From positions 682,001-746,000 of the forward strand of contig NZ_CP089588.1 in the NCBI RefSeq assembly GCF_021249345.1: a stretch of DNA of 64,000 bases. Direction: 5' to 3'. Shown here one piece after another: positions 47,502 through 52,142 of the stretch; positions within the stretch are counted from its first letter, which is position 1, and each line of letters opens with the position of its first letter. A program made the position numbers and the translations under genes. The DNA is from Halobacterium wangiae (lineage in GTDB: Archaea; Halobacteriota; Halobacteria; Halobacteriales; Halobacteriaceae). A model generated the notes under the pieces. The model did no database searches, was not told the DNA's origin, and saw only the letters and a program-made list of their open reading frames with translations.

Positions 47502-48557
47502 TCATGCGGTGTTGGCGTCTGCCCGCTCGGCGAGCCTGATGCCCGTCTTCTTCAGGATGCGCGTCGAGAACAGCGTGTCCCAGTCGTCGTCGCCGACGTC
47601 CCAGTACTCCGCCATCACGTCCCTGACCTGCTCGATGCGTTCCTGGCTCTCCTCCTCGGTGCGGCCGTGTGTCATCGCGAAGAAGTTGTACGGCCAGACG
47701 CCGTCGTGACGCGGGCGCTCGTAGCAGTGCGTGACGAAGTCGAGGCTCGCGACCGCCGGCCCGACCTCGCTCACCAGGTCGTCCGGGACGTCCCAGACGG
47801 TCATCCCGTTCTCCGTGTAGCCCAGCGAGTAGTGGTTCGGGATGACGCCGACGCGGCGTACCTTCCCCTCCTCGTTGAACCGGCGCAGCGTCTCGACGAC
47901 CCAGTCGGTCTCCTGGCCGATCTCCTCGGCGACCGCCGCGTACGGCGTCTCGACGACGGGGAGGCCGTCCTGCACCGCGAGTACGAGGTCGCGCTCGGCG
48001 GGCGTGATCGTCCCGCGGTCGGTCGGCTCCGGGGCCGGGCCGAGGTGCGAGAGGTCGACGTCACCGTCCGAGACGGGGCCGTCGACGAGGAACTTCGCCT
48101 CCACGCGGAACTCCCGGAGCTTCGGGAGGTTGTACGTCTGCTGGCCCGTCTCCGCCTCGATCTCCTCGAGCACGTCCGCGACGCGCTCGTCGTCGGCGAC
48201 CGACACGACGAACCACATGTTCAGGTGCGGGTGTTCGCGCTCGTAGTTGTGCGCGACCTCGCGGCGGGCGTTGACCTGTTCGGCAATCTCCTCGTAGCGG
48301 TCTTCCGGCGCGTGCATCGCGACCAGCGACGCGCTGCCGCCGATCTCCTCGGCGTTGATGAGTGCGCCGAACCGCGTCAGCACGCCCTCCTCGTCGAGTC
48401 GTCGCACGCGGTCGAGGAGGGCTGCAGGCTCGATCTCGATGCCGCGCGAGCGCAGCGCGTGTGCCGCTGGCTCGAACGGCCGCTGGACGACCGGGAATCC
48501 ACCCTGGAAGGCGTTGAGTACGGCGCGGTCCCGGTCGTCGAGGTCCGCGATGTCCAT
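47502..48557 (-). CDS. Fused siroheme decarboxylase (AhbA-AhbB type)
   Basis: 351 residues from ATG 48557, often annotated as an Lrp/AsnC regulator. Two homologous modules follow each other: residues about 1-165 (winged helix, then RFGALINAEEIGG and NMWFVVSV) and about 175-345 (RRVGVIPNHYSLGYTENGMTVWDVP, then THCYERPRHDGVWPYNFFAM). AhbA and AhbB are separate subunits in sulfate reducers and methanogens; here both are in one chain. The enzyme makes didecarboxysiroheme on the alternative heme route. Genes of the same pathway follow directly. Confidence 0.88.
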   Translation of the reverse strand: MDIADLDDRDRAVLNAFQGGFPVVQRPFEPAAHALRSRGIEIEPAALLDRVRRLDEEGVLTRFGALINAEEIGGSASLVAMHAPEDRYEEIAEQVNARREVAHNYEREHPHLNMWFVVSVADDERVADVLEEIEAETGQQTYNLPKLREFRVEAKFLVDGPVSDGDVDLSHLGPAPEPTDRGTITPAERDLVLAVQDGLPVVETPYAAVAEEIGQETDWVVETLRRFNEEGKVRRVGVIPNHYSLGYTENGMTVWDVPDDLVSEVGPAVASLDFVTHCYERPRHDGVWPYNFFAMTHGRTEEESQERIEQVRDVMAEYWDVGDDDWDTLFSTRILKKTGIRLAERADANTA

Positions 48558-48663
48558 GGCGGTGGTTGGGTCGCCACGCCAGATAAACGGCCCGGGTCGC
48601 GCCCGACGACCGGGAGAGACGCGATCGAACAGAGAAGAGGAAACTGGATTCGCCGGGGCCGTC

Positions 48664-49080
48664 TCAGGCGTCGAAGCCGTCCTCGGTGATACCGACGACC
48701 TCCTCGACACCCTCCACGTCCGCGATGTCCGAGAGGACGGCGTCGTGGTCGCCCGTGGCTTCCCAGTAGAGGACGAGGTCGAAGCGGCCGTCTCGGAGCA
48801 GTTGCTGGCACTCCCAGACGAACTCGTCGTCCGCGAGGGTGAGCCCCTGGTGCTGGTTCACGCCGAACTCGTCGCTGTCGTTGCCCGAGTAGACGTACGT
48901 GTCGCCCGTCTCGGCGTGCGCAGCGACCGCGTCGCCCGCGTCCAGCGTGAGCTGGTGGAGCAGGCTCTCCTCGTCGGAGCCGTAGCGCGTGTGCACGACC
49001 GCTCCGGCGAGTTCGATGTCACCCGGTCGCAGCAGTTCGACCGTCTCCCGGTAGAGGTTCTCGTCGACCGTCTCGCTCAT
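48664..49080 (-). CDS. Small conserved haloarchaeal protein (DUF5778-like)
   Basis: 138 residues from ATG 49080. Acidic alpha/beta protein with LYRETVELLRPGDIELAGAVVHT, a tail DHDAVLSDIADVEGVEEVVG that looks ferredoxin-like, and a central YWEATG. I recall such proteins as a halophile-only DUF. It stands between the heme block and the divergent cis-prenyltransferase gene. Function unknown. Confidence 0.65.
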   Translation of the reverse strand: MSETVDENLYRETVELLRPGDIELAGAVVHTRYGSDEESLLHQLTLDAGDAVAAHAETGDTYVYSGNDSDEFGVNQHQGLTLADDEFVWECQQLLRDGRFDLVLYWEATGDHDAVLSDIADVEGVEEVVGITEDGFDA

Positions 49081-49193
49081 GTACGATTGGACGCACCTGC
49101 CGGGCATACGTGTGGCGATTCACTCGTAAGCGGGCGCCTAACCCGTCTGTCGAGGGGGAAGGCTGATACGTGAGAGCGTTGTCGGTACGAGCA

Positions 49194-50102
49194 ATGCGAG
49201 ACCGGCTTCGAGCAGCGGTGCACGGCGCCTACGAGCGCGTGCTCCGCCGGGAGATCGACGGCGCCCCCGAGCACGTCGCGGTCATCATGGACGGCAACCG
49301 GCGGTACGCTCGCGAGCGCGGGCGAGACGCCACCGACGGCCACCGCTCGGGCGCCCAGACGACCGAGCAGATGCTGGACTGGTGTGCGGACCTCGGCGTC
49401 GAGGAGCTGACGCTGTACGCCTTCTCGACGGAGAACTTCGACCGTCCCGCCGAGCAGAACGAACAGCTGTTCGACCTCCTCACGGAGAAGCTCCGGGAGT
49501 TCGCGGACGCCGACCGCGTCCACGAGCAGGGCGTCCGCATCCGGACCATCGGCGAGACCGAACGCCTCCCCGAGCGCGTCCGAGAGGCCGCCACGTACGC
49601 CGACCGCCGCACCGCCGGCTACGGGTCGTTCACGCTGAACATCGCGCTCGCCTACGGTGGTCGCGCGGAGCTCCTGGGCGCCGCCCGCGGCATCGCCGAC
49701 GCGGTCGACGCCGAGGACATCGAACCGGGCGACGTCGACGTCGCCGAGATCGAGTCCCGCCTCCACGCGAGCCCCGTCCGCGACGTCGACCTCATCATCC
49801 GCACGGGCGGCGACGAGCGCACGTCGAACTTCCTGCCGTGGCACGCCAACGGCAGCGAGGCCGCCGTCTTCTTCTGCACGCCGTACTGGCCGGAGTTCTC
49901 GAAAGTCGACTTCTTGCGGGCCGTCCGCACCTACGAGTCCCGCGAGGCGTCCTGGCGCCGCACCCGCGCCCGCCGTGCACTCGCGCTCGTCCGCTCGCTG
50001 GGCACCGAGGTGAAGGAGGCCCGCCGCGTCCTCGACCGCCTGAAGGAAACGCTCCCCGAGAGTCCGGACGTCGAGGAACCGGAGCGGCGGTCGGCGGACT
50101 AA
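49194..50102 (+). CDS. uppS: cis-Prenyltransferase (polyprenyl diphosphate synthase)
   Basis: 302 residues from ATG 49194. Catalytic motif HVAVIMDGNRRYARERG (Asp33 of DGN), LTLYAFSTENFDRP, LNIALAYGGRAE and the diphosphate-binding IIRTGGDERTSNFLPW with a downstream Glu222 are all present. It elongates an allylic diphosphate with isopentenyl diphosphate to the cis-polyprenyl carrier used for archaeal N-glycosylation. The region after RTGG departs from the bacterial YSELYF pattern. A non-canonical paralogue ends 26 bp away on the other strand. Confidence 0.93.
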   Translation: MRDRLRAAVHGAYERVLRREIDGAPEHVAVIMDGNRRYARERGRDATDGHRSGAQTTEQMLDWCADLGVEELTLYAFSTENFDRPAEQNEQLFDLLTEKLREFADADRVHEQGVRIRTIGETERLPERVREAATYADRRTAGYGSFTLNIALAYGGRAELLGAARGIADAVDAEDIEPGDVDVAEIESRLHASPVRDVDLIIRTGGDERTSNFLPWHANGSEAAVFFCTPYWPEFSKVDFLRAVRTYESREASWRRTRARRALALVRSLGTEVKEARRVLDRLKETLPESPDVEEPERRSAD

Positions 50103-50127
50103 CCTCCGAAGATCGGCCTGTTCGCCC

Positions 50128-50736
50128 TCATCGTCCGAACCTGCGCTGCCTGTTCTCGTAGTCCAGCACCGCGCGGAGGTAGTCCCGCTTGCGGAAGTCC
50201 CGCCAGTTGACGTCCGTGAAGTAGAGTTCGGAGTAGACGGACTGCCAGATCATGAAATCCGAGAGGCGCTCGGCGCCGGTCTTGATGACGAGGTCGGGTT
50301 CCGCGGGGAAGACGAGTTCCGCCTCGATGGCGTCCTCGTCGACGTCCGCGGGGTCCATCTCGCCGTCGTCGACGGCCTCCGCGACGTTCCGGACGGCGGT
50401 GGCGAACTCGTGTTTGCCGCCGTGGCCGACGCTCACCTGGATGGGGGCATCGGCGCGCTCGTCGTCGTCGGGGCCGCGGACGGCGATCTCCCGGGGCGTC
50501 GAGACGCGCGCGAGTTCGCGTTCGAGCGTCGGCACCGCGGCCTCGTCGAGGACGCTGACGTACACCGTGACGCGGTCGGCGCCGTAGTCGAACGCCCAGT
50601 CGAAGAAGTCCGCGAGCGTGTCGTAGGCGCCCGCTTCGAGGAGGTCGCGTTCGGTGATGACGAGCGCGACGTGGTCGGGGGCGTCGGCGTCGTGGCGGCG
50701 CACGCGAGCGGCGAGGTACCAGTCGTACAGTCCCAC
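50128..50736 (-). CDS. cis-Prenyltransferase paralogue lacking the DGN motif
   Basis: 202 residues from ATG 50736. The C-terminal third is clearly of the UPPS family: DLVIKTGAERLSDFMIW, SVYSELYFTDVNWRDF and the final ENRQRRFG. VSVGHGGKHEF (101-111) matches the usual NYGGR region. The N-terminal match (DHVALVITERDLLEAG, residues 21-36) lacks the DGNR segment, so the catalytic Asp is missing. By analogy with NgBR/Nus1 it could be a non-catalytic subunit for a partner, most simply the uppS product. It is convergent with uppS. Confidence 0.8.
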   Translation of the reverse strand: MGLYDWYLAARVRRHDADAPDHVALVITERDLLEAGAYDTLADFFDWAFDYGADRVTVYVSVLDEAAVPTLERELARVSTPREIAVRGPDDDERADAPIQVSVGHGGKHEFATAVRNVAEAVDDGEMDPADVDEDAIEAELVFPAEPDLVIKTGAERLSDFMIWQSVYSELYFTDVNWRDFRKRDYLRAVLDYENRQRRFGR

Positions 50737-50819: not shown

Positions 50820-52142
50820 GTGAACTGGAGTCTCCGGCGCGCCCTCGCGTTCGCGCTCGTGGCGACGCTGGCTCTCGCGGCACCGCTGCTCGGCTGGGCA
50901 GCGGCGGTGCCGTTCGTCGTCGTCGCCGTCCTCGGCGCGTCGGTCACCGACGGCTGGCTGTTCGAGGTGTTCTCGACCGCGCGCGACCGCCGCGAGGAGC
51001 GCCTGCAGACGCTCGTCGGCTTCGCGGGCGCGGCGGCCAGCGTCGGCCTGCTGGTGCCGCTGTTCGACGTGCCAGTCGGCGTGTTCGTCGCGAGCGTGCT
51101 CGTCGTCGGCTACGGCGACCTGGGCCGCCGGCTGGTGCTGGAAGTGCGGGAGAACCGCGCGCTCTCGATGGCCGCGTTCGTCGTCCTGGGCGCGCTCGCG
51201 GCGCTCGTCGGGCAGGCCGTCGTCGCCGCCGCGACCGACGCGGCCGTGGACTACCCACACTGGGTGTTCCTGGCGACGAGCGGCGCGCTGCTCGCGGGCA
51301 TCCTGCGGACGGTGTTCGTCTCGCGGGACGACCCGGTCGTGCTGTTGACGGTCGCCCTGTTGCTGTGGCTGTTCGCGGTGCTCGCGCCCCTCGAGGGCGT
51401 CCCGGCGACGGCGGCCTGGGAGCGCGTGCTCGTCGCGCTCGGCGTGACGGCCCTCTTCGGCTACGTCTCCCGCGCGCTCGGCGCGACGTCAGTCGCGGGG
51501 ATGCTCACCGGCGTGTTCCTCGGGTTGCTCGCGGTCGTACTCGGGGGCTACGGCTGGTTCGTCGTCCTCATCGCGTTCTTCGCGGTCGGCAGCCTCACGA
51601 CGAAGTTCCGGTACGACCAGAAACTCGAACGCGGCGTCGCCGAACCGAACGACGGCGCCCGGGGCACCGGGAACGTCCTCGGGAACTCCGCGGCGGCGCT
51701 CATCGCGCTCCTGCTGTACGCCGCCCACGCCCACGTGCCGCTGTCGGACCTGGTCTACCAGTTCGCCTACGCTGGCAGCGTGGCCACCGCGCTCGCGGAC
51801 ACGCTCTCCTCGGAGGTCGGCGGCCTCTTCGACGACCCCCGGCTGGTGACGACGTTCGAGCGCGTCGACCCCGGCACCGACGGCGCGGTCACCTGGCAGG
51901 GCGAGGTCGCCGGACTCGCGGGCGCCGCGGTCATCGCCGGTCTCACGGTGCTCGTCTTCGACTTCGGCGCGACGGGCGCCGCGGTCGTCGTCGGTGCGGG
52001 CGTCGCCGGGATGACCGCCGACAGCGTCGCGGGCGCGACGCTCGAGGGTGGGACGGTCGGGAACCAGTCGGTGAACTTCCTTGCGACGCTGGTCGGCGGC
52101 GTCGTCGGTGGCCTGCTCGCGATCGGCGTCGGACTCGCGTAG
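50820..52142 (+). CDS. DUF92 family membrane protein
   Basis: 440 residues from GTG 50820, with about twelve hydrophobic segments. The C-terminal 240 residues carry the DUF92/TIGR00297 markers: GVFLGLLAVVLGGYGWF, LTTKFRYDQK, RGTGNVLGNSAAA and ATALADTLSSEVGG. The plant homologue VTE6 acts on phytyl phosphate, which makes a polyprenyl-phosphate substrate conceivable here. The N-terminal 200 residues are an additional membrane region. Adjacent and divergent to a cis-prenyltransferase paralogue. Confidence 0.85.
   Translation: MNWSLRRALAFALVATLALAAPLLGWAAAVPFVVVAVLGASVTDGWLFEVFSTARDRREERLQTLVGFAGAAASVGLLVPLFDVPVGVFVASVLVVGYGDLGRRLVLEVRENRALSMAAFVVLGALAALVGQAVVAAATDAAVDYPHWVFLATSGALLAGILRTVFVSRDDPVVLLTVALLLWLFAVLAPLEGVPATAAWERVLVALGVTALFGYVSRALGATSVAGMLTGVFLGLLAVVLGGYGWFVVLIAFFAVGSLTTKFRYDQKLERGVAEPNDGARGTGNVLGNSAAALIALLLYAAHAHVPLSDLVYQFAYAGSVATALADTLSSEVGGLFDDPRLVTTFERVDPGTDGAVTWQGEVAGLAGAAVIAGLTVLVFDFGATGAAVVVGAGVAGMTADSVAGATLEGGTVGNQSVNFLATLVGGVVGGLLAIGVGLA

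Follow-up and report, generated by a model that had tools for sequence, protein, structure and literature searches.

The haloarchaeon Halobacterium wangiae carries two neighbouring genes, here called C and P, which very probably encode the two subunits of an obligate heteromeric cis-prenyltransferase making a C50-60-type polyprenyl diphosphate for glycosyl-carrier lipids. Both lie within the window, the whole 64,000-nucleotide stretch of contig NZ_CP089588.1 (positions 682,001 to 746,000) that was analysed and to which all coordinates refer. C (49194..50102, + strand) has 302 aa from its ATG, or 310 aa from an alternative GTG at 49170, and is the predicted catalytic, DHDDS-like subunit. P (50128..50736, − strand, 202 aa) is the predicted non-catalytic, NgBR-like partner. 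The two would probably assemble as a heterodimer or as a dimer of heterodimers. The evidence comprises complementary motifs, co-occurrence, synteny, predicted folds and a phylogenetic tree.

Complementary motifs in C and P

C matches PF01255 over profile positions 1-216 of 219 (E=3.7e-68, 229.8 bits against a cut-off of 27) and scores 230.7 bits with NCBIfam TIGR00055, above the cut-off of 109.55; the family model names it undecaprenyl/polyprenyl diphosphate synthase, as though it were complete by itself. An earlier note on this DNA had described C as a canonical enzyme with a DGN motif and all other catalytic motifs. The DGN motif is indeed present (D33-G34-N35, 49290..49298, +) within HVAVIMDGNRR. 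It aligns with D26-G27-N28 of the E. coli enzyme, so that Asp33 belongs to the Mg2+/allylic diphosphate site, and DGNRR is invariant in all 91 C orthologues. Alignment also shows that C retains the equivalents of E. coli UPPS R30, H43, F70, S71, E73, N74, R77, R194, R200 and S202, but the C-terminal RXG is absent; both the alignment with E. coli UPPS and the structural model have a helix continuing instead. This helix (residues 237-286; 49902..50051, +) is unbroken according to AlphaFold2/DSSP and passes through the spot where homodimeric enzymes carry RXG. For want of RXG, C does not combine DGN and RXG within one protein as homodimeric UPPS does. The AlphaFold2 model of C (pLDDT 88.6) is closest to UPPS and DHDDS by Foldseek, the best PDB matches shown belonging to the cis-prenyltransferase family, and can be aligned with DHDDS across 277-286 columns, the C-terminal helix among them, compared with approximately 228 for UPPS.

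P matches only the second half of PF01255 (profile 115-219, E=3.3e-27, 95.9 bits, cut-off 27) and at 89.7 bits falls below the TIGR00055 cut-off of 109.55. The earlier note had seen no DGN segment after HVALV in this paralogue and had found its YSELYF kept, and both observations are confirmed. P reads HVALVITERDL, with T28-E29-R30 (50647..50655, −) replacing DGN; in these columns T is found in 52, E in 64 and R in 49 of 88 P proteins. YSELYF is located at 50218..50235 (−), where Glu170 is invariant in 88/88. The protein terminates in RRFGR, which is of the RXG type, and the prediction is that this tail (R199-F200-G201-R202 with the C-terminus; 50131..50142, −) reaches into C's active site. The AlphaFold2 model of P (pLDDT 85.7) has a cis-prenyltransferase fold, and its Foldseek matches are cis-prenyltransferases; confidence is low for the last four residues in this monomer model.

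The same division was found in an orthologue set drawn from approximately 88 Halobacteriota genomes (91 C proteins, 88 P proteins). DGN is present in all 91 C proteins as opposed to none of the 88 P proteins, whereas an aligned RXG is present in none of the C proteins and in 87 of the P proteins, the remaining P having KXG. The Gly of this tail is found in 88/88 P proteins and the chain stops exactly one residue past it in every one of them. In two of the 91 C proteins an R-x-G stands roughly one residue off the register of RXG. Coverage of the PF01255 profile is likewise complementary, from 1 to about 216 for C and from about 107 to 219 for P. Since the split recurs throughout these orthologues and P is under purifying selection (dN/dS around 0.3, similar to C, against three relatives), it is not a matter of chance.

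The earlier note had also proposed that the proteins deviate in complementary regions, C having lost YSELYF. C does read ANGSEAAVFF at this place, two residues longer; the Glu, however, is kept in a shifted register, and 83 of the 91 C proteins retain it two residues off the YSELYF register. Glu213 of YSELYF was considered as a second partitioned residue and dropped, because the alignment gives this off-register Glu. As judged from the aligned sequences, the decisive partitioned feature is the RXG tail, and not YSELYF alone.

From these features we infer a C-P interaction with a composite active site. In the proposed mechanism one ancestral gene gave rise to two copies, each of which lost the half that the other kept, and hence neither protein should work well alone. 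C would hold Mg2+ and the allylic diphosphate via DGN and perform chain elongation. P would have no working site, and its R-F-G-R tail would cross the interface to complete the diphosphate-binding site of C, as NgBR does for DHDDS. With DGN and RXG on two genes, each heterodimer would have one composite site, which only a C-P pair could build. The product would probably be a C50-60-type polyprenyl diphosphate, leading to a dolichyl or polyprenyl phosphate carrier for glycosylation.

Distribution, gene order and the role of P

C and P are the only PF01255 genes of the source genome, no third being found in its 3.1 Mb. We surveyed 416 Halobacteriota genomes, 292 of them haloarchaeal and 124 from outside the class. 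PF01255 genes occur in every haloarchaeal genome, with exactly two in 281 and at least two in 291 of the 292; among the other 124 genomes, 116 have at least two, two have one and six have none. At least one C together with at least one P was found in nearly all 416, and the 103 genomes checked match by match each combine a full-length match (C) with a C-terminal one (P), additional copies being occasional. One genome (99% complete, 120 contigs) has P only, possibly owing to an assembly gap. Five genomes, all from one family, gave zero PF01255 matches, both subunits being missing together. Across the genomes surveyed, the two-gene arrangement is the norm for Halobacteriota and no peculiarity of this genome.

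In the source genome C and P are convergent neighbours 25 bp apart. Among 60 haloarchaeal genomes, 46 have the two genes within 12 kb of each other, as have 16 of 43 others, and in all 62 genomes with neighbouring pairs these are convergent. Adjacency has been lost in the other genomes (14/60 haloarchaeal, 27/43 other), which shows that the pair can do without a shared locus. Of the two properties that the earlier note had proposed to check, co-occurrence across haloarchaea holds almost throughout, and adjacency holds in its convergent orientation but not as a constant linkage. The sequence predictions examined all agreed with the heteromeric enzyme which that note had raised as a possibility, and they support it well: co-occurrence, convergent adjacency, the strict DGN/RXG split, the lack of a DGN Asp at any other place in the P sequence, and membership of the same phylum as the M. 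mazei heteromer.

A DUF92 membrane protein (50820..52142, +; PF01940, E=5.7e-52) is the divergent neighbour of P. Of 50 haloarchaeal P loci, 47 have DUF92 beside P, as do 12 of 38 in other classes, always divergent; it also occurs at 14 of 30 P loci without C, and none was found at C-only loci. Judged by gene order across loci, the linkage of P to DUF92 is tighter than that of P to C. We regard the DUF92 protein as a probable pathway partner, outside the enzyme itself, and as a kinase candidate for the polyprenol/dolichol pathway; PF01940 is the family of the plant phytyl-phosphate kinase VTE6. Pairwise distances intercorrelate among C, P and DUF92 with Spearman coefficients of 0.52-0.62, in which shared ancestry is still included, and those of C or P against DUF5778 or DnaG give 0.29-0.36. 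DUF92 distances also correlate with DUF5778 (0.60), and the distance correlation linking C, P and DUF92 is suggestive only.

The DUF5778 gene (48664-49107, −) is divergent and upstream of C; among 52 haloarchaeal C loci, 29 have it at most 500 bp away from C. At 47502-48659 (−) the siroheme decarboxylase subunits AhbA and AhbB are apparently fused in a single ORF, with NCBIfam matches to NF040708 at residues 44-190 and to NF040707 at residues 225-375.

It is improbable that C works at full activity as a homodimer and that P is a separate protein with a different role, for instance in regulation or lipid binding. C does carry all the catalytic residues, the genes are unlinked in many genomes, and M. 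mazei MM_0014 is an active homodimer that lacks RXG and has loose specificity. Nevertheless, RXG is gone from every C protein, whereas P, which has no site of its own, keeps a fixed RXG C-terminus (88/88, including the one KXG); the co-occurrence of the two is nearly without exception, and the M. mazei paralogues MM_0618 and MM_1083 are reported to be a heteromer. As the human DHDDS homodimer has weak activity and yeast Nus1 is without the Arg of RXG (PMC7573591), C may have some low activity without P.

We consider it more doubtful still that P is itself an active enzyme, with another residue replacing DGN and a second product. The partial retention of IPP-site residues (the equivalents of R/K194, R200 and S/T202 in the alignment) would be consistent with this, but the equivalents of Asp26, Asn28, Arg30, His43, Asn74 and Arg77 are missing from almost all P proteins. 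Moreover, among the 88 aligned P proteins the DGN loop holds no conserved acidic substitute except the Glu of T-E-R (64/88), and by sequence no DGN Asp occurs at another place in P. That P is a decaying, functionless synthase duplicate, as the loss of DGN and most N-terminal motifs might suggest, deserves almost no credence given its presence in essentially all Halobacteriota, the purifying selection upon it, the residues Y4, E170, R198 and G201 that are invariant over a diverse alignment, and its conserved synteny with DUF92.

Asgard counterparts and the origin of the split

Asgard genomes were reached via a Baldrarchaeota contig that was found with an actin query as bait. Most matches to this query were in bacterial MAGs and one was in a Baldrarchaeota; the actin genes in bacterial MAGs at 14 of the loci are at most 93% identical to human actin and are probably eukaryotic contamination. 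PF01255 matches were obtained in 61 of 69 Asgard genomes, nearly all of which have a single gene reaching profile position 219. All 30 loci that were read combine DGN, a YSELYF/YSEFYF-type motif and an RRFG-type end in one protein, and these enzymes end one residue after the Gly, the same as P.

A tree without the human sequences resolves four clades, namely C (support 100/96), P (100/99), Asgard (98/93) and bacteria (100/99), with the archaeal sequences separate from the bacterial ones. These data fit a model where a single-gene archaeal enzyme was duplicated and the copies underwent complementary loss, so that C and P would each have arisen once. C and P may or may not be mutual nearest relatives (p-AU 0.219). 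In a tree with the human sequences P groups with NgBR (100/99), the NgBR branch measuring 5.3 changes per column; groupings of C with DHDDS (p-AU 0.187) and of Asgard with DHDDS and NgBR (p-AU 0.341) were not rejected. It is conceivable, although we think it rather unlikely, that C/P and DHDDS/NgBR descend from one archaeal split that was later lost in the sampled Asgard archaea, and not from two independent losses. The position of NgBR with P in the tree and the LVITE that replaces DGN in both would fit a single split; the shared LVITE may reflect inheritance or coincidence.

A heteromeric cis-prenyltransferase is a kind of enzyme already known from DHDDS/NgBR and M. mazei. The value of the present data lies in the two-subunit enzyme as a probable phylum-wide rule, the exact partition of motifs, the single-gene Asgard counterparts and the link to DUF92. 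If C and P do act as a single enzyme, a whole archaeal phylum, with the genetically tractable Haloferax volcanii in it, would have a two-protein glycosyl-carrier synthase resembling the human complex. The pair would then offer a simple prokaryotic model for DHDDS/NgBR, in which active-site and RXG mutations lead to human disease. It would also present a clear example of how a homodimer with two sites becomes a heterodimer with one through complementary loss, with single-gene relatives extant in Asgard archaea.

Comparison with known cis-prenyltransferases

Nothing relevant on haloarchaeal cis-prenyltransferases was found in the open-access literature searched. Homodimeric UPPS, such as E. coli IspU and the Asgard single-gene enzymes, have the same fold and catalytic motifs as the haloarchaeal pair, but carry DGN and RXG in one protein, as the alignment shows for E. 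coli and other bacterial enzymes, whereas in haloarchaea the two are spread over two proteins. Homodimers also show transverse contacts (PMC7573591), which implies two composite sites per homodimer.

Within the same phylum, Methanosarcina mazei has three cis-prenyltransferase homologues, of which MM_0618 and MM_1083 together make up a heteromeric enzyme with C45-50 products, according to PMC8131916 (citing Emi 2019). In a methanogen genome there is a further short copy, whose match to MM_0014 takes in the TLGG tail. With MM_0014 as the third homologue, C and P are, by elimination, most simply orthologues of the proven MM_0618/MM_1083 pair. The haloarchaeal pair differs in that C and P are here convergent and 25 bp apart, and in the long C-terminal helix of C. 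MM_0014 resembles C in being an archaeal family member without RXG, and differs in its own TLGG tail and in forming a separate, third lineage.

In the human enzyme, the RXG tail of NgBR crosses the dimer interface and forms part of both DHDDS substrate sites, and the complex outpaces the DHDDS homodimer around 400-fold (PMC7573591). We did not take P as an NgBR orthologue by similarity alone, as profile A2 rates bacterial UPPS (E=5e-35) far over NgBR (E=1e-10), or by fold, as Foldseek puts DHDDS and UPPS chains ahead of NgBR. The likeness to DHDDS/NgBR, and to yeast Rer2/Nus1 and plant CPT/LEW1, lies in the arrangement of a DGN subunit without RXG beside a DGN-less subunit that ends in RXG and one further residue. 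Human NgBR ends R290-L-G-K293, P likewise has one residue after RXG, and both have LVITE at the DGN position. Unlike NgBR, P starts directly at the conserved domain without an N-terminal membrane anchor, and the product expected of the C-P pair is C50-60 and not C85-100.
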